Made by a program: the position numbers and the translations under genes
The notes under the pieces: generated by a model
Databases searched by the model: none
Seen by the model: only the letters and a program-made list of their open reading frames with translations
Told to the model about the DNA's origin: nothing
NCBI RefSeq assembly: GCF_026339875.1
Contig: NZ_JAPEPZ010000003.1
Span: forward strand, 1 to 64,000
Reading direction: 5' to 3'
Source: Streptomyces sp. NBC_01571
Lineage (GTDB): Bacteria; Actinomycetota; Actinomycetes; Streptomycetales; Streptomycetaceae
DNA length: 64,000 nucleotides
Shown: piece by piece, positions 10,729-23,215 of the stretch
How the letters are laid out: each line of letters opens with the position of its first letter
Numbering within the stretch: the stretch's first letter is position 1

Positions 10729-10798
10729 CCGACCGACTGGATGAGCATCACGACAGAGGCCCAGGGCGCCTCCGCGCAGCCCGCCGGCCGCGTCATAC

Positions 10799-11164
10799 GT
10801 CCCGCTTGTCGGCCGGATCACCGCCGAGGAATCGGTCGATGACGTGTTCCCCCTCCGCCGCCAGCTCGTCGGCGACGGTGAGCTGTTCGTGCTGAAGGTC
10901 GTCGGCGACTCGCTGATCGAGGCCGCGATCCGTGGGGGCGACTGGGTCAGAATCCGCCGTCAGCCGGTCGCGGAGAACGGCGACATCGCCGCCGCCACGC
11001 TCGACGGCGAGGCCACCGTCAAGCGCTTCAAGCGTGAGGACGGCCATGTCTGGCTCCTCCCGCACAACTCGGCGTACGAGCCGATTCCCGGCGACGACGC
11101 GACCTGGTGGCGGTACTGCGGCGCGTCTAACAGCCGCGGCGGGCCGGTGGTGCGGGCCGGCTGA
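10799..11164 (+). pseudogene. LexA-like C-terminal (S24 peptidase) fragment
   Basis: The frame reads [17 protein letters not shown], then [18 protein letters not shown] and [18 protein letters not shown]. This is the LexA C-terminal latent-peptidase domain with the catalytic Ser (GDS) and Lys (TVKRF) present. The N-terminal winged-helix DNA-binding domain is missing and the last ~20 residues (after DDATWW) diverge from LexA. The fragment cannot repress an SOS regulon and is best called a remnant. It may come from an ancestral lexA duplication or a plasmid-borne copy. Confidence 0.8.
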
Positions 11165-11176
11165 GCCGGGCCTGGG

Positions 11177-12058
11177 CTATAGCGGATCGACGGTGAGAAG
11201 GCGCTGGTCGAGGTCCAGGTGGATGATGCCGCCGTTCTGCTCGCGCAACTGGCGCCATGCGGTGTAGCCGGTGAGGATGGCGTGCTCCCAGTCGGCGGCG
11301 CGGCAGATGCTGACTTCGAGGTGGGCGGTCATGTGGCCGATGGTGGTGAGTAGTTCGTTGTCGATGTGCTTGATGTCGGCGAAGTAGCGGTGGCGGGCGG
11401 CGTAGGAGAAGACGAGCGCGGAGATGCCTTCTTCGATGGCAATGGCGCGGCCGCCGTCTTCGGCTTCGTCGGTGTGGGGGCTGCTCTTTCGTTTGCGGCC
11501 GAGGAGGAAGCGGGTGACGGGGGACCAACCGAGGACGGCGGCGTGGGCGAGATGGAAGGCGTCGTGGAAGCGGTAGTCGTCTTCGATGTGGGAGGCGCTG
11601 GTGAGGGGATCGCCAGCGGGGGCGCCGTCTTCGCGGGTGAGGACGATGACTGTACTGCCGTCGTCTCGGGTGGTGGGGGTGAAGGTGAGGGTGGTCTGGC
11701 GCGGGAGGCGTTCGTGGTCGGGGAAGTGGTCGTCGAAGCGGGTGTGTTCGGTGTCGGGCGTGGTGCGCCAGCGGTCTTTGGTCTTTTCCAGGCTGGCAGT
11801 GGCGATGTCGTCGAGGTCGAGGTCGAAGCGGTGGGCAAGGGCGGCTATGTACCACAGAACGTCGCCGAGTTCTTCGCGTAGCTGATGCTTGCCCTGCTCA
11901 TGGGCGGGCCCGTCGCGCAGGTGTTTCTTGTAGGCGGTGGCGAGGGAGCCGACTTCGCCGGCGAGGCCGAGCAGGGGGATGAGGACGGGGTCCGTGTCCC
12001 CGATGGGGGGGGGTTGGAGGGTTTTGATGGCGGCCTGCTGGTAGCGCTGGAAGTCCAC
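11177..12058 (-). CDS. MazG-like NTP pyrophosphohydrolase with extra C-terminal domain
   Basis: The N-terminal ~110 residues match the all-alpha MazG fold: LLGLAGEVGSLATAYKKH, then REELGDVLWYIAALAHRF, the acidic E..E/E..D metal-binding arrangement. Such enzymes hydrolyse (often non-canonical) nucleoside triphosphates to monophosphates and PPi. The ~170-residue C-terminal part contains HDAFHLAHAAVLGWSPV and AIEEGISALVFSYAA; it resembles the MazG C-terminal extension seen next to nucleotide or base modification genes (from memory, not searched). It is divergent from the acyl-carrier/HTH/peptidase/TS-like operon and probably shares the 12059-12156 promoter region with it. Substrate sanitation or supply for that system is inferred. 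Confidence 0.8.
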   Translation of the reverse strand: MDFQRYQQAAIKTLQPPPIGDTDPVLIPLLGLAGEVGSLATAYKKHLRDGPAHEQGKHQLREELGDVLWYIAALAHRFDLDLDDIATASLEKTKDRWRTTPDTEHTRFDDHFPDHERLPRQTTLTFTPTTRDDGSTVIVLTREDGAPAGDPLTSASHIEDDYRFHDAFHLAHAAVLGWSPVTRFLLGRKRKSSPHTDEAEDGGRAIAIEEGISALVFSYAARHRYFADIKHIDNELLTTIGHMTAHLEVSICRAADWEHAILTGYTAWRQLREQNGGIIHLDLDQRLLTVDPL

Positions 12059-12156
12059 GCCTCACTCCTTGTCTGATCTTGGGACATGCCTGTCGGATTC
12101 CTCGACGTTGTCGTATCGTAGGACACCGACGTTGGAAATGCAGACGATTGGGTGGA

Positions 12157-12435
12157 ATGCTGAGTACCGTCACACCGGGCATCGACGACATCGCCTCGGT
12201 CGTCATCGAGTTCCTGGCCGAACTGCAGGAGAAGCCCGCACCCGAGGTGAGAGCCGAACTCGAGGACAGCGGAGCGGAGTTGCCGGTCGACTCGCTCCTG
12301 ATCGTGGAGATCCTCACGCGCATTGAGGAGCGCTACTCCATCGCCATTCCTGCCGACCGCCAGTCGGCCGAGGCCACCCGGTCCGTGCAGGCGTTCGCCC
12401 GCGCGGTACGGGAAGCCATCATCGAAAGGCAGTAA
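12157..12435 (+). CDS. Acyl carrier protein
   Basis: 92 residues with the phosphopantetheine site in ELPVDSLLIVEILTRIEE: the DSL serine sits at the start of helix II, followed by the normal acidic helix and a C-terminal helix ending ARAVREAIIERQ. Carrier proteins hold acyl or aminoacyl groups as thioesters. There is no polyketide, NRPS or fatty-acid gene nearby. It ends 2 nt before the XRE gene, so it belongs to this operon, which also contains a thymidylate-synthase homologue. A role in delivering an acyl group to a modified nucleotide is speculative. Confidence 0.82.
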   Translation: MLSTVTPGIDDIASVVIEFLAELQEKPAPEVRAELEDSGAELPVDSLLIVEILTRIEERYSIAIPADRQSAEATRSVQAFARAVREAIIERQ

Positions 12436-12437
12436 TC

Positions 12438-12845
12438 GTGACCCCTCCATCCTCCGACGCCCGAGCCCGCGATCCCGAACTCACCCGGCTCGGCGAACGG
12501 CTGAAGAAGACCCGCGACTACCTCAACATGTCGCAACAGTTCGTCTCCGACAACACCGGCATCCCCCGTTCGGCGATCAGCGACATCGAGCGCGGCGAGC
12601 GGCGTGTGGACAGCCTGGAGCTGAAGAAGCTCGCCCGCCTGTACCGGCAGCCGGTCGCCTACTTCCTTGCCGAGGAAGAGGATGCGGACGCCGGCGAGTA
12701 CGCCCTGGCTGGACTGCCGCGCGCACTGGCCCAGTTGACCGACGGCGACCAGAAGACGGTGATGGAGTTCGCCGAGTACCTCTCGCTGCGGCGGGCGGCG
12801 GAGAAGGAGCAGGATGACTCCGCGGAACAGGACAGCCAGCGGTGA
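12438..12845 (+). CDS. XRE-family regulator
   Basis: 135 residues. HTH_3 domain LGERLKKTRDYLNMSQQFVS, then GIPRSAISDIERGERRVDSL. A C-terminal helix (LTDGDQKTVMEFAEYLSLRR) is typical of regulators paired with ImmA/IrrE peptidases. It overlaps the peptidase gene by four bases (GTGA). By analogy with ImmR/ImmA and DdrO/IrrE pairs it probably represses this cluster and is inactivated by cleavage. Confidence 0.9.
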   Translation: MTPPSSDARARDPELTRLGERLKKTRDYLNMSQQFVSDNTGIPRSAISDIERGERRVDSLELKKLARLYRQPVAYFLAEEEDADAGEYALAGLPRALAQLTDGDQKTVMEFAEYLSLRRAAEKEQDDSAEQDSQR

Positions 12846-13720
12846 ACTGGGCGGTGGCGCACCGCATCGCAGGGATCGCGGCTGCCCAGGCCCACCGTGA
12901 TCTGGGCATCGACCGCAGCCGTTACGTACCGGTCCACCAGGCATTGAAGAGAGCCGAAGTCGTCGGCATGGCGCAGCCGATGCCGCGCCTGTTCGGCGTC
13001 TACCTCTCCCCCGCCGACAACGGGCCGGCCGTGCTGATCAACGCCAATCTGAACATCGTCACCCAGCGGCACACTGCGGCCCACGAGCTCGGGCACCACC
13101 AGTTGCGGCACCGTACGGCGGCCGACGACGACCTCAGCCCGGCGCTGCGGTGGGGCAACGGCAGCTGGCCGGACGAGGAGAAGACCGCGGAGGCGTTCGC
13201 CGCATGGTTCCTCATGCCGCGCCCGGCCGTGTTGGCCGGTCTCGACCGAATCTGCCGGGGACAGCCGACCAGCCCAGAGCATGTGTACCGGCTGGCAAGG
13301 GAGCTGGGCACCTCCTACGCGGGCACCGTGCGGCATCTGCAGAACCTTCGTCTGCTGGATGCCGACCGTGCTCGCCAGTGGACGAAGATCTCCCTGGCCG
13401 CACTGCGCAATTCCCTGGCGGGCGGGGCGGCCCTGTCTGCGGAAGCCCAGGTCCATGTCGTCACCACGTCATCCCATCGGCAGCAGATACACGTCGACGT
13501 CGGTGACGTGCTGACCGTCCGCAGCACCCGAGCTGCGTTCGTCTCGCTGCCCAAGGGCCTGGCCCTCTGCACGGATGTAGAGCAGGCGGCCGTGGTGACC
13601 GACGAGCTGGGCGATCCGGTCGTGCTGGAGGTGTCGGCGGCCGACAGGGACGAGCCGGTCCGGCTGACGGTGGTGCGGGACGCGCCCCGCGCCGGTGTGC
13701 ACGACGTCTGGCCGGACTGA
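12842..13720 (+). CDS. ImmA/IrrE-family metallo-endopeptidase
   Basis: Zinc-protease core HTAAHELGHHQLRHR (HExxH) near residue 80, with the downstream conserved glutamate in EKTAEAFAAWFLMPRP. The C-terminal ~120 residues are a separate beta-rich domain ending DAPRAGVHDVWPD. The family cleaves a partner XRE repressor after a stress signal; the partner is the gene overlapping upstream. The GTG start overlaps the upstream TGA. In this cluster it is likely the induction switch. Confidence 0.9.
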   Translation: MNWAVAHRIAGIAAAQAHRDLGIDRSRYVPVHQALKRAEVVGMAQPMPRLFGVYLSPADNGPAVLINANLNIVTQRHTAAHELGHHQLRHRTAADDDLSPALRWGNGSWPDEEKTAEAFAAWFLMPRPAVLAGLDRICRGQPTSPEHVYRLARELGTSYAGTVRHLQNLRLLDADRARQWTKISLAALRNSLAGGAALSAEAQVHVVTTSSHRQQIHVDVGDVLTVRSTRAAFVSLPKGLALCTDVEQAAVVTDELGDPVVLEVSAADRDEPVRLTVVRDAPRAGVHDVWPD

Positions 13721-13770
13721 CCACTGCCGCACCGGACTCCTTTACCCCGTCGACCGTGCCAGGAGGATTC

Positions 13771-14559
13771 ATGATCAGCTTCGATGTCACCGGCCGTGAC
13801 GTCACCCGCGCCTGGATCGCCGCCTGCAATGCCCTGGACCGCAAGGACAACCCGTCGCGCACCGGCCTACACACCGTCGTACGCATCACCGACCCCACCA
13901 CTGACGACACGGGCTTCCGCACAGAACTGGACCGGCTGCGCACCGCCAAACGGCACGAGCCGATCGATACCGTCGCCGGCACCCTCTTTCCAGCCGGCCT
14001 CGCGGCCCGAGCCGCCGATCACGCCGACCTCGTGTCCCGCTACCGCGCCATGTACCCGCAGCTGAAGAAGTTCCCGGGCAATGTGCACGGCACCTACTTC
14101 GGCCGCCTGGTCGCCTACCCCGGCGCGAAGAAGACCGACATCGACCAGGTCGGCAACATCATCAGCCGGCTGCGCAAGCAGGCCTCGGGCAAGGGGCCGA
14201 TGACCGCGGCCTACGAAGCGGACCTCGCCCACCCCGACGACGGCGACGTGCCGGCCGAGCTGCTCGTGCACGCAGCGGACCGCGACAACCTCTACCGCGG
14301 CTTCCCCTGCCTGAGCCACGTCTCTTTCCAGCTGGACCGTGACGGCCGAGTGCACGCCGCGGCGCTGTACCGCAGCCACTACATGTTCGAACGGGCCTAC
14401 GGCAACTACCTGGGCCTGGGCAGACTGCTCGCCTACATCGCCGACCAGGCCGACCTGGCCGTCGGGACGCTGACCGTCGTGGCCGGGCACGCCCACCTGG
14501 ACGGGCCGATCACCGCCATACGCCCGCTGCTGAGCGACACCCCGCCCCTGGCCGCATAA
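13771..14559 (+). CDS. Thymidylate-synthase-superfamily enzyme (possible pyrimidine hydroxymethylase)
   Basis: 262 residues. The signature region FPCLSHVSFQLD matches the TS active site (PCHxxxQF) with the catalytic cysteine kept. It is followed by ALYRSHYMFERAYGNYLG and TVVAGHAHLDG, which correspond to the TS RxxD/N nucleotide-binding helix and the C-terminal H-x-Y/L region. The N-terminal half is divergent from housekeeping ThyA. TS-like enzymes outside primary metabolism often make 5-hydroxymethyl-dUMP/dCMP for DNA base modification. AGGAGG at 13761 supports the ATG. It ends convergently 8 nt from an HMUDK-type gene, supporting a joint role in hypermodified-base synthesis. Confidence 0.75.
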   Translation: MISFDVTGRDVTRAWIAACNALDRKDNPSRTGLHTVVRITDPTTDDTGFRTELDRLRTAKRHEPIDTVAGTLFPAGLAARAADHADLVSRYRAMYPQLKKFPGNVHGTYFGRLVAYPGAKKTDIDQVGNIISRLRKQASGKGPMTAAYEADLAHPDDGDVPAELLVHAADRDNLYRGFPCLSHVSFQLDRDGRVHAAALYRSHYMFERAYGNYLGLGRLLAYIADQADLAVGTLTVVAGHAHLDGPITAIRPLLSDTPPLAA

Positions 14560-14567
14560 CACCCGCC

Positions 14568-15593
14568 TCAGCAAGGCGCGTTGATCCCCCACTTGGGCGG
14601 GAACCAGGCCGGCACCGGTGCCGTCGAGGAGCGGTAGGTCTGCTTGATGCGGCTGCGGCCGCTGATCCCTGCGATCTCCGGGTGGGCGACGCGCGCGTAC
14701 TTGTCGACCTCGCAGAACAGGTTCTGACAGTCGATCAACTGCAGCGAGCGCCCACGCAACCCTGCAAACTCCAGACCCAGGCGGGCGAAGTGCTCGTCCT
14801 GGGTGTCGGCCATGTACCGGATAACATCGGCCTCGATGCCGTCGGCCGCCACACCGAAGCACTTGCGGATCCCGTCTCTCGCGCCGGGCCCGGCCACGAC
14901 GAAGTCCATCTCCGAAAACGGCATCGCGGCCGCGTAGTTGAGGTCGATCACGAACTGGTACGCCAGGAACGGACCGATGGCCGGATAGCCCAGCAGGACT
15001 TCGTAGGCATCCCGCAGCGTTGACGCCGCCAGGACCTTCTCCGAGGCGCCGGACGTCATCATCATCTCAAGCAGCCGCAGATGATTGCGGTGCTTGCGCT
15101 GCTCCCCCAGCTGTGGCGGCGGCACGATGTAGGCGGCCGAGTACAGCCGCTCCCCCGCCGCGAATGCCCGCGACAGCACTCGGTCAAAGACCCGGTGGTC
15201 ATATCCGTCCCACCGCACCTCGCCCAGCTCCCCGGTCAGCAGCCGCCACGTGGACTCCTTGTTGAAGACCTTGAACAGCAGGGTGCGGAAGAAGACCTCC
15301 TCCCACTCCGCCTCGCCGTCGTAGATGACGTCGCCGATCAGGACCTGGCTGACCCGGTCCGCGGCCCGGTAGCAGTTGGTGAACCGGTACCGCGACAGGA
15401 TCGGATCATTCGTCCAAGGCCCCTGCCCACCGGACAGCCGCGCCTCGTACACCGCCTGACGTGCCGCAGCAAAACGCCAGTACGTGTCGAAAACGGGAGT
15501 CGGGTGCAGTATCCGCCCCGCAATGCGGATCCCGGCCGCAGCAGCAGCCCCCGAGCCCTCCGACTTCCGGCGTCCTTGCAGCAGCGTCACCAT
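14568..15593 (-). CDS. HMUDK-type 'nucleotide kinase domain' protein (DNA base hypermodification family)
   Basis: 341 residues. The N-terminal region HPTPVFDTYWRFAAARQAVY, then GPWTNDPILSRYRFTNCYRA and DRVSQVLIGDVIY is the conserved core of the 5-hmdU DNA kinase helical-domain family, also called alpha-glutamyl/putrescinyl-thymine pyrophosphorylase clade. Known or predicted members act on 5-hydroxymethyl-pyrimidines during base hypermodification. ATG at 15593 is preferred because upstream sequence is non-coding. It is convergent with the TS-like gene. Family assignment is from memory of the motif and needs a profile search. Confidence 0.72.
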   Translation of the reverse strand: MVTLLQGRRKSEGSGAAAAAGIRIAGRILHPTPVFDTYWRFAAARQAVYEARLSGGQGPWTNDPILSRYRFTNCYRAADRVSQVLIGDVIYDGEAEWEEVFFRTLLFKVFNKESTWRLLTGELGEVRWDGYDHRVFDRVLSRAFAAGERLYSAAYIVPPPQLGEQRKHRNHLRLLEMMMTSGASEKVLAASTLRDAYEVLLGYPAIGPFLAYQFVIDLNYAAAMPFSEMDFVVAGPGARDGIRKCFGVAADGIEADVIRYMADTQDEHFARLGLEFAGLRGRSLQLIDCQNLFCEVDKYARVAHPEIAGISGRSRIKQTYRSSTAPVPAWFPPKWGINAPC

Positions 15594-15644
15594 GCACTCA
15601 ATATATATTCGATACAGGGTAGTTGGCACGGACAAGGGGGAACC

Positions 15645-15929
15645 GTGGACCTGCTGTGGCAGCAGACCCGCCGCAACACACTCGTCACCTGGCCCAACGA
15701 CGTCGACCAGCGCCTCGACATACTCGTGCGGGCCGCAGTCGCCGCCGGCGAACAGGCTTCCCGCTCCCAGATCCTGGCCGCACTCGTCGCCACCGCCGAA
15801 GCGAGTCCCGACGCCGTAGCCGTTCTCCTCCACGCCTACCGGCGGCTGCCCGGTGATGCCCTGGCCGCGGACAACGAACGCCCCGACCTGCCCACCATCC
15901 GTACCCCCGGCCCCACGCGCACACAGTGA
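15645..15929 (+). CDS. Small helical hypothetical protein
   Basis: 94 residues, GTG start with AAGGGGGAA at 15634-15642. The sequence DVDQRLDILVRAAVAAGEQA followed by SRSQILAALVATAEASPDAV resembles a ribbon-helix-helix or arrangement of short DNA-binding helices, as seen in small regulators. It is divergent from the HMUDK-type gene with only ~50 bases between starts, so it may regulate it or be part of the system. An AT-rich element (TATATATTCGATACAG) lies between. Confidence 0.6.
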   Translation: MDLLWQQTRRNTLVTWPNDVDQRLDILVRAAVAAGEQASRSQILAALVATAEASPDAVAVLLHAYRRLPGDALAADNERPDLPTIRTPGPTRTQ

Positions 15930-16109: not shown

Positions 16110-17564
16110 GTGGCAGCGGGGGTGTTGCGGACCGTGCCGCTGGCCGGGGAGCTGACCGCATCGTTGATCAGCCGTGTGGCGGCCCGCTACGGTCTCCCGA
16201 CCGCCGGTGTGCTGCGGCTGTGGACGTGCCGCAACTCCCCCGCCCGGCACGACGGCGGCGGTGCGCGGGCGGACGCGGAGGTCGTCCTCAACGAGGCCGG
16301 GCGGCGGGTGCTCGCCGAGTTGTGCAGGGTGGAGCCCGAGGTACTGGCGCGCGCTTTGCCTGCCTTCACCATGGACGACCCCAAGATCAGCAACAGCCGG
16401 GACGCCGCCCTGGCGCAGGCACGGTGGCGGACGGCGGGCACGGTAGCGGGTCCGGCCGCGTTCGGCTGCCGGCTGTGTACCGCGCGGGGCACCGGACAGG
16501 CACTGCGAGCGGTGCGCTACCTGCCGCGCTGGCATCGGGTCTGCCTGCGGCACGGGCGCTGACTGCTGGACGCTGACGCCGACCAGTCGCTGGAACACCT
16601 CGATGTGCGCGGCGCGGCTGAGGTGGTGGCCGCGCAGCGGCGGTGGCCGGGCGTGGCGCGGCGTGCGTTGCGGGCCGGGGTGGAGCCGGAGCAGGCGTTC
16701 ACGCTGGCGCATGCGGTGGTGGCCCGCTGGTGGGAGCAGGCCCTGTCCTGGGAGCAGGAGGAGATCTGGCCGCGCCGTCTGCATCAGCTGGCGGGCGGCA
16801 ACGCGGGGTCACGGCTTGCGTGGTGGCGGATCGTGGGCCGGGACGCGGCGATCTTCCCGGAGGTGGTGGCCGTGGCGCAGGCGCTGCTGGAGCCGGCAAT
16901 GGCCGAGGTGGCCTGGCAGGCAAGCGGCGGGATGCGGCCTCGGGTGCGGGGCGCCGGCAATGCGTTCTGTTACCGGCTGGGTGAGCGGGTGAGCCGCACC
17001 TGGCTGGGACCCGAACTTGCGGCCGACCACGGCAGCCCGCTGAACGGCTGGAAGGGCGCGATCGTGCGCGCCCGCCGCCACGAGACGGGACCGCCGGGCT
17101 GGCCGGAGGATCCGTGGCACCTGAAGCGGGAACAGCAGCCCGCCACGATGGCCGGCCAGTTGCGCGTCATGGCGGCAGAAGCCCAATCGGGCGGCTCGGG
17201 AACCCGGTGGCGGGCCACCGTTCCTACCGAACAACGGTTCCCCATCACGCAGTTGGTCGACGAGGCGCGCGAACAGCTGGTGGAGTCGCGCGGTGTGCAC
17301 AGCGACACCACCGCCGAGGTGGCCCGCACCCTGCTCGAGCACCTCAGCCACAGTGCCGGTCTGATCGACCAGGCCCTCGTGCATTCCGCCGCCGCAGCCG
17401 TCGCCTCCGGGGTGGCGCTGGAGGAGGTGGCTCAGTGGTCCCGTCTGGCCGCCGAGGAGCTGGCCGCGGTGTTCGCCCATACGCAGACCCGCGTGTACGA
17501 AACCTTTCCGCACTTGATCGCGCACAGCTACGATGGCGTTCTTTGCGGTAAGGGGGCCGGGTGA
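16110..17564 (+). pseudogene. TniQ-like protein with in-frame stop
   Basis: The frame starts GTG GCA GCG at 16110 (LRTVPLAGELTASLISRVAA, the TniQ N-terminal pattern). It contains the zinc-binding CRLCTARG and RYLPRWHRVCLRHGR. At 16560-16562 a TGA replaces what is normally Trp in HGRW; the same frame then continues without interruption (LLDADADQSLEHLD) to 17564. TniQ/TnsD proteins are target-site DNA-binding factors of transposition and CRISPR-associated transposons; stand-alone homologues occur in actinobacteria. The stop overlaps the next gene's GTG by four bases, so it was built as the first gene of the ABC-3C operon. A nonsense mutation, a sequencing error or stop read-through are the alternatives. 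Confidence 0.72.
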
Positions 17565-18502
17565 AGTTCGAGCAGCGGATGTATGCCCGTCTCAAGTTCC
17601 TCGACCTGATGGCCGACCTCTACGAATCTGCGTTCGAGGATTTCTTCCACCGAGTCATGGTCACGCGCTACCCGAATTTCCTGGATGTCCGGACCCACGG
17701 CAATCTCGGTGATCAAGGTGCGGACGGGCTCACCCTGCACAGTCGCAAGCTCTACGCCTGCTACGCCCCGCAGACGGGGGGCGCCTCCGCCGTCAAGACG
17801 AAGTTCATCAAAGACCTGGCCAGCGCCGTGCGACAGCGCGATGGACAGTTCGACACCTTCGTCTTCGTCCATAACGACCGGCGAGGGATCCACCCCCAGG
17901 TCGCGACCATGCTCTCTACCGCAGACTCTGACCACCCGGCCCTGGATTTCGAGCAGATGGGCACCCGCCACATATGGCAGGAGTGCATGGGTCTCGACCT
18001 AGCCTTCGCCGAAGACGTCCTGGGCTGCGAGATCCCGGTCAAACCCACCGTGTATGGAATGGGCATGGACGACCTGGCACCGCTGCTACAGCACCTCAAG
18101 GAACTGCGGGCCGAGGCCGATCCGCTCATGGAACTGCCCCAGGTACGCGAGGAGAAGCTCGACTTCAACCAACTCCGGGGCGAGTCGCGTGACGCGCTGC
18201 TGCGCGGCATGCGGCACACCCCCCTGGTAGAGGCTTTCTACGCTGGAGGTATCCGGACTCTGGAACACGACGAGGTCGCACGCGGATTCCGTATTTTCTA
18301 CGAACAGGTGCGCCAGGAGTATCGGGACCCCGACGACGTGCTGTGGCAGCTGGAAATGTACGTCCTGGGTAATGAACGCCAGCGGCCCCAGGTACACCGG
18401 GCGGCATGGGTTGTCCTGGCGCACTTCTTCTTCCGCTGCGACATCTTCGAGGCACCTCCCAGCGACTGGAGCCCGGCAGGACTGGTGAGCGCGCAGCCGT
18501 GA
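17561..18502 (+). CDS. ABC-three-component system effector (REase-like N-terminus)
   Basis: 313 residues. The N-terminus LYESAFEDFFHRVMVTRYPN, then GNLGDQGADGLTLH and LYACYAPQ follows the pattern of the PD-(D/E)xK-like domain of ABC-3C effector proteins (G-D-x-x-x-D-G ... xYAP). The C-terminal helical region corresponds to the ABC-3C-specific C-terminal domain. In these conflict systems the effector is controlled by a middle component and an SMC-like ATPase. It overlaps the TniQ-like gene upstream and the middle component downstream by four bases each, a tightly coupled operon. Confidence 0.75.
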   Translation: MKFEQRMYARLKFLDLMADLYESAFEDFFHRVMVTRYPNFLDVRTHGNLGDQGADGLTLHSRKLYACYAPQTGGASAVKTKFIKDLASAVRQRDGQFDTFVFVHNDRRGIHPQVATMLSTADSDHPALDFEQMGTRHIWQECMGLDLAFAEDVLGCEIPVKPTVYGMGMDDLAPLLQHLKELRAEADPLMELPQVREEKLDFNQLRGESRDALLRGMRHTPLVEAFYAGGIRTLEHDEVARGFRIFYEQVRQEYRDPDDVLWQLEMYVLGNERQRPQVHRAAWVVLAHFFFRCDIFEAPPSDWSPAGLVSAQP

Positions 18503-18765
18503 TCACACCCACCAAAGGGATCGCACCGGACCGCTGCCTGCTCGCTGTAGGCGCCCAGGCCCTCCTTCAGCTGGACGAGCCGCGGACTGTGAGCCAGACC
18601 TGGGCGCGGCTGAAGGCCTGGCGTCGGGAGCACCACCACTACTCCCCGGTATCGTTCGGCTGGTTCGTCCTGTCCCTGGACGTCCTGTACGGGATCGGTG
18701 CGGTCGAACTGCACGACGACCTCCTTGTCGTTAGGAATGCAGATGCTGCGTCGCTTGAGTGCTGA
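18499..18765 (+). CDS. ABC-three-component system middle component
   Basis: 88 residues from a GTG overlapping the upstream TGA: KGIAPDRCLLAVGAQALLQL, then WFVLSLDVLYGIGAVELHDD. This is the winged-helix-like small middle component typical of ABC-3C loci (motif FxxALDLLYALGxIxxxxxxL). It overlaps the ATPase start by 23 nt. It is believed to bridge effector and ATPase. Confidence 0.75.
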   Translation: MITPTKGIAPDRCLLAVGAQALLQLDEPRTVSQTWARLKAWRREHHHYSPVSFGWFVLSLDVLYGIGAVELHDDLLVVRNADAASLEC

Positions 18766-20491
18766 CGATTCCCGGTTCAAGGAGATTGCCTTCCAAGGCG
18801 GCCTGAACCTGCTGCTCGCCGACAAGACCGAAGCCTCCACGTCCACCGACAGCCGCAACAGCGCCGGCAAGTCCAGCCTGGTCGAGCTCGTCCACTTCCT
18901 GCTCGGCGCGAGTGGCAGCACCCGCAACCCGTTCACCAAGCGGGCACTGCGATCAATTACCTTCGGCTTGGACCTGGACTGGCCTGACGTGACCGAAACG
19001 CTGAAGGTACGCCGCAGCGGCGCACGGCCAGCGTTCGTCACCCTCCAACCCGACGTGACCGCACCCGACCCGGACTCCCTGTTCGCCCTCGAGACGCAAG
19101 GCCAGGTCGAGGTCGCCATCGAGCAGTGGAACCATCTGATCGAGCAGAAACTGTTCGGACTGCGCGACGACCACCCCGGCGTCAGCGGCCGGACCCTGCT
19201 CTCCTATCTCGCGCGCCGGGTCTCGGCCCACGGCTTCAACGAAGCCGGACGCACCTTCTCCCGCCAGCCCGCCGCCGACGCCACCACCAACCTGGCCTAC
19301 CTACTCGGCCTGGACTGGCAGCTGGCCGACGGATACCGGCAGCTCGCCGCCCGCGACGCTACCCGCAAACAGCTCCGCAAAGCCGTGAACGACCCTGTTT
19401 GGGGACAGATCGTCGGCTCCACCGCCGACCTACGTGGCCAGATCGCGCTGGCCGAGGCCCAGGTCGAACGCCTGCAAGGCCAGGTCGCCGCCTTCCAGGT
19501 CGTACCCGAGTACGAGCACCTCAAGGACCAGGCCGACGAGCTCAGTCGCCGCATCAAACAGCTTTCCCAGGACGATGTCATCGAGCAGTACAACCTCGAC
19601 GAACTGCAACAGGCAGTCATTGAGACAGTCGACGTCGACACCCAGTATCTGCAGCCCGCCTACCGTGAACTCGGCATCGTTCTCAGCGACCAGGTCCGCC
19701 GCAGGTTCCAGGAGGTCGAGGCCTTCCACCATTCCATCGTGCGCAACCGGCGCCGCTTCCTGAACGAAGAGATCAGCGAGCTCACCGCACGGCTCGCCGA
19801 GCGCCGCACCGAGCGCGCCCGCTTGGGTGAGGAGCAGGCGCAACTGCTGCGCCAGCTCGACGAAGGCGGCGCTCTGGAAGCACTCACCTCCCTCCAGCAG
19901 GCCCTCGCCCGCGAGCAAGCGGCACTGGGAGCCTTGCGCCACCGCTACGACGCGGCCCAGACCTTGGAGTCCAGCTCCCGCCAGATCACCGCCAAACGCA
20001 TCCAGCTCCAGCAGGCCGTCGAGACCGACCTCGACGAACGCGAACAGCAGACAAGCGAAGCCACCCTGCTGTTCTCTCGTTTCGCCCAGGCCCTCTACGG
20101 GCCCCGCGAGGCCTTCTTGGCCATCCAGGCCGGACGCGAGAGCCTGACGATCACCCCACGCATCGACAGCGACAACAGCCGTGGCATCGGCAACATGGTC
20201 ATCTTCTGCTTCGACCTCACCCTTGCTGTCCTCGCCCACCGACACGGACGCGGCCCGGACTTCCTCATCCACGACAGCCACTTGTACGACGGTGTCGACG
20301 ACCGACAACTCAAGGCCGCACTGCAACTCGCCGCAGACGTCACCCGTGAAGAGAACATGCAGTACATCGCAACCCTCAACACCGACGACCTCGCCAAAGC
20401 CACCCGCCTGGGCTTCGACGCCGAGCCCTACGCCCTCCAAACCATCCTGACCGACGCCCCAACCGGCGGACTCTTCGGCTTTCGCTACTGA
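18743..20491 (+). CDS. ABC-three-component system SMC-like ATPase (DUF2326)
   Basis: 582 residues. Walker A is DSRNSAGKSSLVELVHFLLG, after a two-strand N-terminus. Long coiled coil from about residue 230 to 440 (many Q/E/R heptads), then the DUF2326 C-terminal ATPase lobe: NSRGIGNMVIFCFDLTLAVL and FLIHDSHLYDGVDDRQ (Walker B-like), ending GGLFGFRY. The second ATG (18743) is preferred over 18737 because AGGA at 18733 gives proper spacing. Together with the two upstream genes it forms a complete ABC-3C conflict module. Confidence 0.85.
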   Translation: MLRRLSADDSRFKEIAFQGGLNLLLADKTEASTSTDSRNSAGKSSLVELVHFLLGASGSTRNPFTKRALRSITFGLDLDWPDVTETLKVRRSGARPAFVTLQPDVTAPDPDSLFALETQGQVEVAIEQWNHLIEQKLFGLRDDHPGVSGRTLLSYLARRVSAHGFNEAGRTFSRQPAADATTNLAYLLGLDWQLADGYRQLAARDATRKQLRKAVNDPVWGQIVGSTADLRGQIALAEAQVERLQGQVAAFQVVPEYEHLKDQADELSRRIKQLSQDDVIEQYNLDELQQAVIETVDVDTQYLQPAYRELGIVLSDQVRRRFQEVEAFHHSIVRNRRRFLNEEISELTARLAERRTERARLGEEQAQLLRQLDEGGALEALTSLQQALAREQAALGALRHRYDAAQTLESSSRQITAKRIQLQQAVETDLDEREQQTSEATLLFSRFAQALYGPREAFLAIQAGRESLTITPRIDSDNSRGIGNMVIFCFDLTLAVLAHRHGRGPDFLIHDSHLYDGVDDRQLKAALQLAADVTREENMQYIATLNTDDLAKATRLGFDAEPYALQTILTDAPTGGLFGFRY

Positions 20492-20767: not shown

Positions 20768-22408
20768 ATGGACGGCCCGAGATCCAAGGTTGAGCTGTTC
20801 GCGGCGATCCGCCGCGACTCGCGCACGGAGAAGCTGTCGATTCACGAGCTCTCGCGCCGTCACGGAGTTCACCGGCGGCTGGTCCGTGAGGCCCTGACCT
20901 CGCCGTGGCCGGCACCCCGCAAGCCGGGGCCGCCGCGCGCATCGGTGCTGGACCCCTACAAGCACCTGATCGACGCAATCTTGCGCGCGGACCTGGATGC
21001 CCCGCGCAAGCAGCGCCACACCGCCAAGCGGGTCTTCGACCGCCTGGTCGAGGAGCACGGCATGGCCGACGTCTCCTACGGCCGGGTCCGGGACTACATC
21101 AAGCGCCGCAAGCCTGAGGTCTGGGTCGAGGAGGGCCGCGGTCCGCCCGCGGTGTTCATCCCGCAGACCCACCGGCCCGGCGAGGAGGCGGAGGTCGACT
21201 TCGGCGACGTCGTCGTCACCCTCAACGGAGTCCGAACCCTGTGCTACCTGTTCGTTTTCCGGCTCTCCTTCTCGGGCAAGGCCGTGCACCGCATCTCGGC
21301 CTCCCAAGGCCAGGAGGCATTCTTCGAGGGGCACATCCATGCCTTTGAGGTGCTGGGCGGGGTGCCGACGGGGAAGGTCCGCTACGACAACCTGACCTCT
21401 GCGGTCGCCCGGGTGCTGGGCTTCAGCCGGGCCAGAGTGGAGACCGACCGCTGGACCGCGTTCCGTTCCTGGGCGGGCTTGGACGCCTTCTACTGCATGC
21501 CCGGCATTGACGGCGCCCACGAGAAGGGTGGCGTCGAGGGTGAGGTCGGCAGGTTTCGCCGCAACCACCTGGTCCCCGTCCCCGACGTCGCCTCCCTGGC
21601 CGAGCTCAACGCCCGGATCGAGGAGTGGGACCGCCAGAACGACCAGCGCCGCATCGGCGAGCGACCGCGCACCGTCGGCGAGTTCTTCGCTATCGAGAAG
21701 CCGCTGCTGCAGCCACTGCCCGAGGACCACTTCGAGACCGGGCGCCTGCTGACCCCGCGAGTGGACCGGTACGCGCAGATCACCGTCCGCCAGAACCACT
21801 ACTCGGTACCGGTGCGGCTGATCGGCCGCCAGGTCCGTGTCCTGCTGCACGCTTCCGAGGTCGTGGTCTACGACGGCCGCACCGAGGTCGCCCGCCACGA
21901 ACGCCTGGTCGCGCGCGGCGCCAGCAGCCTGAACCTGGACCACTACCTGGAAGGACTCCTGCGCAAGCCCGGCGCACTGCCCGGGGCCACCGCCCTGGAC
22001 CAGGCCCGCGCGGCGGGCAAGTTCACTCCCGTCCACGACGCCTGGTGGGAGGCCGCCCGCAAAGCCCACGGGGACGCTGCCGGGACCCGCGCGCTGATCG
22101 AGGTCCTGCTGCTGCACCGGCACATGCACCACGATCACGTCGTCGCCGGCATCGCCGCCGCCCTACGGGCCGGGGCCCTGACCTCGGACGCGGTCGCCCT
22201 GGAAGCACGCCGGGCCGCGGAACACGAGACCCCCTCCCCGGCCGGACCGGACACCGCGCTGGGCCAGATCGCCTCCCCGGTGATCTCCCTGACCGCGCGC
22301 CGCCTGGCCGCACTGCCTCCCGACCCGCGCCCGCTGCCCTCGGTCGCCGCCTACGACCAGCTCCTTCGCCACACCCGGCCCGCAACCGGGCGCCCCACCA
22401 GTAGTTAA
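20768..22408 (+). CDS. istA: IS21 transposase IstA
   Basis: 546 residues. N-terminal HTH (LSIHELSRRHGVHRRLVREA), then an rve integrase catalytic core with acidic residues in EAEVDFGDVVV, VRYDNLTSAV and EKGGVEGEVGRFRRNHL (the D-D-E triad), followed by the Mu-like beta domain with YSVPVRLIGRQVRVL. ATG at 20768, just after the left inverted repeat. It acts with IstB in cut-and-paste transposition. Confidence 0.93.
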   Translation: MDGPRSKVELFAAIRRDSRTEKLSIHELSRRHGVHRRLVREALTSPWPAPRKPGPPRASVLDPYKHLIDAILRADLDAPRKQRHTAKRVFDRLVEEHGMADVSYGRVRDYIKRRKPEVWVEEGRGPPAVFIPQTHRPGEEAEVDFGDVVVTLNGVRTLCYLFVFRLSFSGKAVHRISASQGQEAFFEGHIHAFEVLGGVPTGKVRYDNLTSAVARVLGFSRARVETDRWTAFRSWAGLDAFYCMPGIDGAHEKGGVEGEVGRFRRNHLVPVPDVASLAELNARIEEWDRQNDQRRIGERPRTVGEFFAIEKPLLQPLPEDHFETGRLLTPRVDRYAQITVRQNHYSVPVRLIGRQVRVLLHASEVVVYDGRTEVARHERLVARGASSLNLDHYLEGLLRKPGALPGATALDQARAAGKFTPVHDAWWEAARKAHGDAAGTRALIEVLLLHRHMHHDHVVAGIAAALRAGALTSDAVALEARRAAEHETPSPAGPDTALGQIASPVISLTARRLAALPPDPRPLPSVAAYDQLLRHTRPATGRPTSS

Positions 22409-22420
22409 GGGAGTCCTGCC

Positions 22421-23215
22421 ATGAATGCCGTCCGCCCCCGTGGCCTGACCGAACCGGCCGCCGACGCGGCCATCGACGCCGCCTGCCGCAACCTGCGTCT
22501 GCCCACGATGCGGGGCCAGTTCTCCGAGCTCGCCGACGCCGCGGCCCGCGACCAGATGACCTACCGCGGACTCCTGGCCGAGCTGCTGATGGCCGAGTGC
22601 GACGACCGCAACCGCCGCCGCTCCGAGCGCCGGATCAAGGCCGCCGGCTTCCCTCGCGACAAGTCACTGCGGCAGTTCAACTTCGATGCGAACCCCGCCA
22701 TCGACCCGGCCGCGATCCACACACTGGCCTCCTGCGACTGGGTCCGCAAAGGACTTCCCCTCTGCCTGATCGGCGACTCGGGAACCGGCAAGTCCCACCT
22801 CCTGATCGCCCTGGGCACCGAGGCCGCGATCGCCGGATTCCGGGTCAAGTACGTCCTGGCGACCAAACTCGTCAACGAACTCGTCGAGGCAGCCGACGAG
22901 AAACTGCTGACCAAGACCATCGCCCGCTACGGCCGCGTCGACCTGCTCTGCATTGACGAACTGGGCTACATGGAGCTGGACCGGCGCGGCGCCGAACTAC
23001 TGTTCCAGGTCCTGACGGAGCGCGAAGAGAAGAACAGCATGGCCATCGCCTCCAACGAATCGTTCTCCTCGTGGACCAAGACCTTCACCGACCCCCGGCT
23101 CTGCGCGGCCATAGTGGACCGGCTCACCTTCGGCGGCAACATCATCGAGACCGGCAGCGACTCCTACCGACTGGCCCACACCAGGGCCCGCCAGCAGACC
23201 GCCGCAGGCTCCTGA
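22421..23215 (+). CDS. istB: IS21 helper ATPase IstB
   Basis: 264 residues, DnaC-like AAA+ ATPase. Walker A LIGDSGTGKSHLLIALG, Walker B VDLLCIDELGYMELD, sensor I ASNESFSSW, and C-terminal ETGSDSYRLAHTRARQ. It starts 12 nt after istA. It regulates IstA assembly and target DNA bending. Confidence 0.93.
   Translation: MNAVRPRGLTEPAADAAIDAACRNLRLPTMRGQFSELADAAARDQMTYRGLLAELLMAECDDRNRRRSERRIKAAGFPRDKSLRQFNFDANPAIDPAAIHTLASCDWVRKGLPLCLIGDSGTGKSHLLIALGTEAAIAGFRVKYVLATKLVNELVEAADEKLLTKTIARYGRVDLLCIDELGYMELDRRGAELLFQVLTEREEKNSMAIASNESFSSWTKTFTDPRLCAAIVDRLTFGGNIIETGSDSYRLAHTRARQQTAAGS

Follow-up and report, generated by a model that had tools for sequence, protein, structure and literature searches.

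We describe a seven-gene cassette at positions 11177–15929 of a 64-kb window (the whole stretch analysed, 64,000 nucleotides) that forms the start of a contig in the 11.5-Mb genome of Streptomyces sp. NBC_01571. The first gene, on the reverse strand, encodes a MazG-type nucleoside triphosphate pyrophosphohydrolase with a MazG_C domain (11177–12058, GTG start; MazG_C 254 bits against a cut-off of 29.7, MazG 30.7 against 22). Divergent to it, the forward strand encodes an acyl carrier protein (ACP) with a DSL motif (12157–12435, the start being chosen by eye as the ATG at 12157; PP-binding 26.8 bits, cut-off 20.8), an XRE-type repressor (12438–12845; HTH_3 42.7 bits, cut-off 23), an ImmA/IrrE-type metallopeptidase whose gene overlaps that of the repressor (12842–13720; Peptidase_M78 32.1 bits, cut-off 22) and a divergent enzyme of the thymidylate synthase (TS) superfamily (13771–14559; Thymidylat_synt 25.9 bits, cut-off 24.3). 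These are followed on the reverse strand by the gene for an HMUDK_hel protein, named for the helical domain of the 5-hydroxymethyldeoxyuridine (5-hmdU) DNA kinase family and devoid of a P-loop (14568–15593; 375.5 bits, cut-off 25), and by a small forward-strand gene divergent to it (15645–15929). Six of the seven genes pass a Pfam cut-off; for the product of the small gene, the exception, the best matches of a Pfam profile search were all under their own cut-offs, and a match to EAD2 (15.6 bits, likewise below cut-off) was not used.

An earlier sequence-only reading had joined these genes into one cluster, which the profiles and the occurrence of the same genes elsewhere uphold. Its calls of TS, MazG_C, ACP, XRE and ImmA were borne out, and the TS-like and HMUDK-like proteins both scored above their Pfam cut-offs, but the HMUDK call did not stand as a kinase-domain protein, as the Walker A motif is missing.

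Conservation and mobility of the cassette

A search of genome contigs with the TS protein returned eight loci, all from Streptomyces, and every one carried all seven genes in the same order, the small gene included (8/8). The nearest named relatives are likewise Streptomyces. TS matches were present in 7/295 Streptomyces genomes, a count that contains one discounted genome, G261, whose match (E 9.3e-4, 31% identity over 71 residues, with an internal stop) was not accepted as a family member. Larger regions from four of the other genomes (G095, G247, G091 and G081) all contained the seven genes, with the TS and HMUDK_hel genes separated by ~1.7 kb in G095. Among 296 sampled Actinomycetota genomes, strong TS members (>260 bits) occurred in four, HMUDK_hel in five and MazG_C in four, and 17 further genomes gave only partial TS matches (<50 bits). 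All four TS members and all four MazG_C members of this sample lay on the same contig as HMUDK_hel, at a distance of at most 6 kb; three genomes combined TS, HMUDK_hel and MazG_C, one combined TS and HMUDK_hel, and one combined MazG_C and HMUDK_hel. Moreover, a block running from 11189 or 11192 to 15892 is common to two linear plasmids of other Streptomyces at ~79–80% DNA identity, and nothing else of positions 1–25000 of the window matched either plasmid. The seven-gene set is therefore a discrete, conserved unit that moves together, with co-occurrence far above chance. The expectation that the genes would be found together in other genomes held, and a chance neighbourhood is excluded. A purely regulatory neighbourhood, such as an addiction module with passenger genes, is extremely improbable: XRE–ImmA pairs are common in mobile elements, but the gene order, the overlaps and the co-occurrence across phyla speak against it, and the co-occurrence counts contradict it. 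In G091, a single contig of 10.27 Mb, two TS copies with equal scores (L031 at C1:116853 and L016 at 10149018) each lie ~117 kb from an end, the arrangement expected if a linear chromosome carried them in its terminal inverted repeats.

Relatives on plasmids extend beyond Streptomyces. A tblastn search of 72,556 plasmid records with TS yielded 24 records, and the counts of plasmid loci given here cover 19 of them (H89, H92, H93, H95 and H96 being left out). The hosts comprise Streptomyces, cyanobacteria (Allocoleopsis, Nostoc), alpha- and betaproteobacteria and the haloarchaeon Haloarcula marina. In 18/19 loci TS follows an ACP-like gene, XRE and ImmA, the exception being L048, which holds a TS fragment; comparison of match lists placed MazG_C within 10 kb of TS in 20/24 records; it was not found in the plasmid loci L040, L044, L048 and L097. 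Two rhizobial plasmids have TS divided between a pair of reading frames, with its neighbours present (L049:6685-7444 and L097:5637-6471).

The TS-fold enzyme, HMUDK_hel and their partners

The earlier assignment of a TS-superfamily enzyme with an active-site Cys was confirmed by conservation and by predicted structure as well as by the Pfam score. In an alignment of 26 proteins, C180 and N212 are invariant (26/26) and R201 is kept in 22/26; profile alignment to solved TS equates these residues with Cys198, Asn229 and Arg218 of L. casei TS, the first two being the catalytic and the base-reading residue. The score to TIGR03283 (55.7 bits) was under its own cut-off of 174.55. Comparison of the structure model with the PDB by Foldseek gave 391 chains at E ≤0.001, beginning at E 1.5e-7; the best 50 of the 391 all belong to the TS superfamily, and the matches include 9iqc and 9iqu (a flavin-linked phage dCMP hydroxylase, recently deposited) and MilA (5b6d). 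The modelled fold, the Pfam score and the Cys and Asn together place the protein in the TS superfamily. The candidate that it serves as the cell's own thymidylate synthase was rejected, since contig C1 encodes both ThyX (160 bits) and another PF00303 protein (106 bits).

Asp221, Arg178/179, His259 and Tyr261 of the L. casei enzyme are residues characteristic of folate-dependent TS. The folate-site Asp221 aligned to Y204, a column with Asp in only 1/26 proteins; Arg178/179 fall in an unconserved stretch of the family alignment, the His259 and Tyr261 columns are variable or acidic, and the C-terminal tail of TS has no counterpart within the matched region. Because the folate-site Asp is gone in 25/26 and the His259 and Tyr261 positions are not kept, ordinary folate use is doubtful, and these residues do not support a conventional folate-type TS or hydroxymethylase. 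The conserved residues make it plausible that the Cys acts on a pyrimidine nucleotide, and 9iqc and 9iqu show that TS folds can use flavin, an alternative donor-free chemistry. Synthesis of a nucleoside-type secondary metabolite by a small gene cluster built on an ACP and a TS-fold enzyme such as MilA would accord with the Streptomyces host, the ACP gene and the match to MilA. However, it is very unlikely, given that the same core resides on plasmids of cyanobacteria, proteobacteria and a haloarchaeon, that no transporter or tailoring enzyme is common to the loci, and that the partners are DNA-base enzymes.

The HMUDK_hel protein has 341 residues, compared with 637 for the SP10 5-hmdU DNA kinase. 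Its model was good (pLDDT 91.8), and the best viral structure match was the SP10 kinase (E 1.8e-13, TM 0.76 by query length), of which the model covers the helical part only; the next viral matches were PhiW-14 and aGPT-Pplase proteins and then amino acid:DNA transferases (E 4e-3 to 2e-2). Against the PDB nothing was found at E 0.001, the first matches being the glycinyltransferase PUGT (8z2m, E 0.16; 8z2n, E 0.26) and DNA glycosylases. A Walker A motif (G-x4-GK[ST]) was absent from all relatives in two overlapping alignments, A2 (15/15 rows) and A7 (28/28 rows, some of which begin at the match start). Since no aligned relative has a P-loop, HMUDK_hel is not the kinase, and the proposal that it acts as one on hydroxymethyl-pyrimidines was rejected. 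The model instead fits a base-handling, glycosylase-like role, consistent with the exchange of this protein for uracil-DNA glycosylase (UDG).

HMUDK_hel and UDG were not found together in any of the plasmid loci (0/19). Nine contain HMUDK_hel (L034, L035, L038, L040, L042, L045, L046, L096 and L097; in L040 the gene lies upstream and does not adjoin TS), nine contain a UDG-superfamily gene (L036, L037, L039, L041, L043, L044, L047, L049 and L095), and L048, a TS fragment, is the one locus with neither. Loci devoid of TS and ACP combine MazG_C with HMUDK_hel (L028, L099) or with UDG (L104, L105), beside Nmad2 and TIR. Because either protein pairs with MazG_C in TS-free loci too, HMUDK_hel and UDG are interchangeable partners of MazG_C; and because this back end recurs beside Nmad2 and TIR without TS, it is shared by two kinds of nucleotide-linked locus. 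In L028:3239-8593, MazG_C, SLOG cluster2, TIR, a ThsB-type TIR, Nmad2 and HMUDK_hel stand together. Two other loci, L098 and L100, from Erythrobacter and Sphingosinicella, have HMUDK_hel beside a plasmid-borne gene for DNA polymerase III alpha (dnaE) and an epsilon/exonuclease gene, with no TS and no MazG_C.

A gene for a C1 papain-like protease lies between ImmA and TS in 11/19 plasmid loci, namely the nine UDG loci, L040 and L097. A C1 gene (31.7 bits) also occurs, together with HMUDK_hel, in the actinobacterial locus L027, and none was detected by HMM in the window and the other listed Streptomyces loci. All the aligned C1 proteins (8/8) retain the papain residues Gln, Cys, His and Asn. In a tree of the 26 TS proteins the UDG loci group together on the C1-bearing side, with L040 and L039 as long branches of unsure placement. 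These features bear on a pool-poisoning or abortive system, in which a toxic nucleotide, an anti-metabolite, would be made, or dTTP/dUTP drained, on infection, MazG and UDG or HMUDK_hel would spare the host by removing it from the pool and from DNA, and the protease would kill or arrest the cell. MazG_C with UDG or HMUDK_hel fits such sanitising, and the intact papain residues, the chagasin domain on some ImmA proteins (described below) and the dCTP deaminase of 3/19 loci agree with it. However, the Streptomyces loci listed have no C1 gene and sequence cannot separate sanitising from finishing, and we consider such a system unlikely. Replacement of HMUDK_hel by UDG, together with the MazG domain, is as compatible with removing or policing a base as with decorating it.

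In the MazG protein, E35, E63 and D66 are invariant in an alignment of 13 relatives, and Ser38 aligns to E66 of human dCTP pyrophosphatase 1, a position with Glu in 1/13; these are the four positions at which acidic metal ligands are expected, Ser38 standing at the second. The protease-bearing loci L036, L037, L041 and L047 encode a longer MazG (~385–405 residues) in which a second MazG-like stretch was matched. The attachment Ser of the ACP is present in 19/19 relatives, and a phosphopantetheinyl transferase gene accompanies the cassette in 5/19 plasmid loci (L037, L040, L045, L096 and L097) and in L027; those of L040, L045 and L027 were verified by Pfam, and those of L037, L096 and L097 rest on record annotation. 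The dCTP deaminase genes are those of L043, L045 and L097, a dTMP kinase is annotated in 1/19 loci (L040), and extra TS-family genes of ~350 residues occur in L045, L047, L029 and, by annotation, L049. To judge from their names, the accessory enzymes together trace a dCTP–dUTP–dUMP–dTMP route. Adjoining the cassette of L037, a single protein (10792–12975) combines a weak TS-like stretch (18.5 bits, under cut-off) with a domain of the calcineurin-like phosphoesterase type (39.7 bits), and metallophosphoesterases also flank MazG_C–UDG in L047, L049 and L106.

Phages of the SP10, PhiW-14 and M6 type hypermodify thymidine by means of a dUMP hydroxymethylase, a 5-hmdU DNA kinase and an amino acid:DNA transferase. 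The cassette resembles these pathways in its TS-superfamily enzyme and HMUDK_hel protein but differs in that the kinase P-loop and the folate-site Asp of TS are absent, in that ACP, XRE/ImmA and MazG_C are added and UDG can replace HMUDK_hel, and in its bacterial, archaeal and plasmid-borne distribution. None of 50,697 phage records matched TS at E 0.001, the best being a partial match at E 0.07, and a phage origin of the cassette was rejected on this basis; HMUDK_hel alone matched 490 phage records. In IMG/VR, TS was seen on two contigs only, L050 with a complete cassette and L052, and no relative of MazG_C of the protease-bearing type was confirmed. L050 (IMGVR_UViG_3300049780_000032) is a contig classed as viral. 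Self-protective hypermodification, that is, alteration of host or plasmid thymines against restriction as in SP10 or PhiW-14 phages, would explain the resemblance of HMUDK_hel to proteins of these phages and suits the frequent plasmid location. Nevertheless, the missing kinase domain, the UDG-type protein that replaces HMUDK_hel in half of the plasmid loci, and the scarcity of TS in phage and viral records argue against it, and the repressor and protease switch suggests induced rather than constant use, which makes self-protection quite unlikely.

The proposed XRE/ImmA switch and its candidate operator

The XRE protein matched the PADLOC models capH (31.6 bits) and RmrA (41.7 bits), and ImmA matched capP (41.8 bits). 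The HExxH motif of ImmA (H81, E82 and H85) and E113 are invariant (15/15). As in CapH/CapP and DdrO/PprI, an HTH repressor adjoins an HExxH metallopeptidase, and by this analogy we infer a CapH/CapP-type switch and predict cleavage of the repressor by ImmA; unlike CapH/CapP, the switch would govern nucleotide enzymes, and no CBASS operon was seen under its control. Single-stranded DNA is reported to activate PprI and CapP to cleave their repressors (PMC10904395).

Two operator-like palindromes lie between the MazG and ACP genes. The first, TGTCTGATCTTGGGACA (12070–12086), has the form TGTC-N9-GACA, which recurs at the same place in 8/15 MazG–ACP gaps. The second, TGTCGTATCGTAGGACA (12109–12125), is the candidate XRE operator in the divergent MazG/ACP promoter region; it fits TGTCGTA-N3-TACGACA at 13/14 positions, a fit reached by 0/500 shuffles, and is the only site with at least 12/14 in the 64-kb window. 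Across the 15 gaps the fit was 13 or 14/14 in ten, 11/14 in four and 8/14 in L050, where 247/500 shuffles were as good, so that the palindrome there is no better than chance. Thirteen Streptomyces loci (234,206 bases) contained 11 sites of at least 12/14, nine of them in the MazG–ACP gap and two elsewhere, both in L035. Because the motif was drawn from the sequences later scored, there is some circularity in the score; the position is nonetheless conserved. The palindromes would give a single repressor control of both MazG and the ACP operon.

Six ImmA proteins were scanned for the chagasin-type inhibitor domain I42, which scored over cut-off in L037, L040 and L049 and below it in L027; the profile scan found none in the ImmA of L038 or of the window. 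Between the cassette and its left neighbour, positions 10844–11164 hold a Peptidase S24 (LexA/UmuD-type) frame (83.2 bits) with no obvious DNA-binding part.

A possible system for C5-modified deoxyuridine

On sequence features, the cassette is a real, mobile, cross-domain module that resembles a switched nucleotide- or base-modification system. Our preferred interpretation, held tentatively and somewhat short of even confidence, is a mobile, XRE/ImmA-switched cassette that would make and police C5-modified deoxyuridine, most likely for defence; of the possible purposes (defence, self-marking and pool poison), defence is put first as the most likely. XRE would repress both divergent transcripts, MazG and ACP–XRE–ImmA–TS, from the TGTC...GACA sites until infection or DNA damage exposes single-stranded DNA and ImmA cleaves XRE, as IrrE/PprI and CapP do. 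The TS-fold enzyme would then activate C5 of dUMP, or of a close pyrimidine nucleotide, through its Cys. The group added at C5 would be supplied otherwise than by the customary transfer from methylene-tetrahydrofolate, and ACP is the likeliest donor because of its invariant attachment Ser and, in some loci, its own transferase. The pool would be supplied or drained by MazG (dUTP to dUMP), joined in some loci by dCTP deaminase and dTMP kinase, so that the set resembles a private dCTP–dUTP–dUMP–dTMP route. HMUDK_hel, or UDG in its stead, would act on the product once in DNA, finishing or excising it, and the papain-like protease of the protease-bearing forms may be an added effector restrained by the inhibitor domain. 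A bolder version, which we think rather unlikely, has ACP (with its own phosphopantetheinyl transferase in some loci) hand an acyl- or aminoacyl-type group to the TS-fold enzyme for C5 of deoxyuridylate, the product being a thymine analogue that the cell or plasmid would deploy against foreign DNA, as weapon or as mark, under a DNA-damage switch, and that would be read or erased by HMUDK_hel or UDG together with MazG.

Several observations weigh against our interpretation. The TS structure model is modest (pLDDT 69.6, pTM 0.76, TM ~0.5 to known TS), the match of HMUDK_hel to PUGT is not significant (E 0.16–0.26), and one of the four expected acidic metal ligands of MazG is missing in 12/13 relatives. 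Many of the distant ACPs fell under the Pfam cut-off or had no PP-binding match, and for the ImmA of the window itself a chagasin domain was rejected, its HHalign probability being only 35%. Finally, 14/34 MazG_C and 12/21 HMUDK_hel plasmid records have no TS match, so MazG_C and HMUDK_hel are not specific to the cassette.

The neighbouring conflict genes count in favour of a defence cassette. Near cassettes we found ABC-three-component (ABC-3C) genes in the window (from 17561) and caspase/CHAT and SIR2/AAA genes at other loci. The ABC-3C genes lie just past the cassette at 17561–20491 (CTD10 67.8 bits; PADLOC PDC-M68A 44.9 bits), and plasmid DNA matches to this region are named ABC-three component. 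At 20768–23215, DNA matches to plasmid records indicate an IS21-type istA/istB region.

Nucleotide-centric conflict systems with Nmad2, SLOG and TIR were reportedly described by Burroughs, Iyer and Aravind, whose work PMC13092281 cites. The pairing of MazG_C with either UDG or HMUDK_hel in loci that also carry Nmad2 and a ThsB-type TIR (L028, L099, L104, L105) resembles these systems, whereas the cassette has an ACP–TS front end in place of Nmad2/TIR. No literature on the whole gene set was found, in keeping with the earlier remark that it matches no standard named pathway; only PMC13092281 treats several of its domains, and the neighbourhood may already have been predicted, as parts of it probably were (Iyer 2013; Burroughs 2015). 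PMC13092281 validated defence systems of E. coli that contain domains of thymidylate synthase and 5-hmdU kinase, and it predicted aGPT-Pplase, MazG, MazG-C and UDG as defence domains without validation. Its DefensePredictor TS/dNMPk/5hmdUk/NMAD systems share domain families and a defence context with the cassette, and the terms 'ImmA' and 'acyl' are absent from its main text, unlike the cassette with its ImmA and ACP.

If our interpretation is right, a DNA- or nucleotide-modification route would exist in bacteria, on plasmids and in an archaeon, and not in phages alone. A carrier protein would stand where folate is expected, and base-decorating and base-excising folds would occupy the same place in one system. 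The unassigned domains MazG_C, HMUDK_hel and Nmad2, among those for which PMC13092281 offers defence predictions that await validation, would become directly testable.

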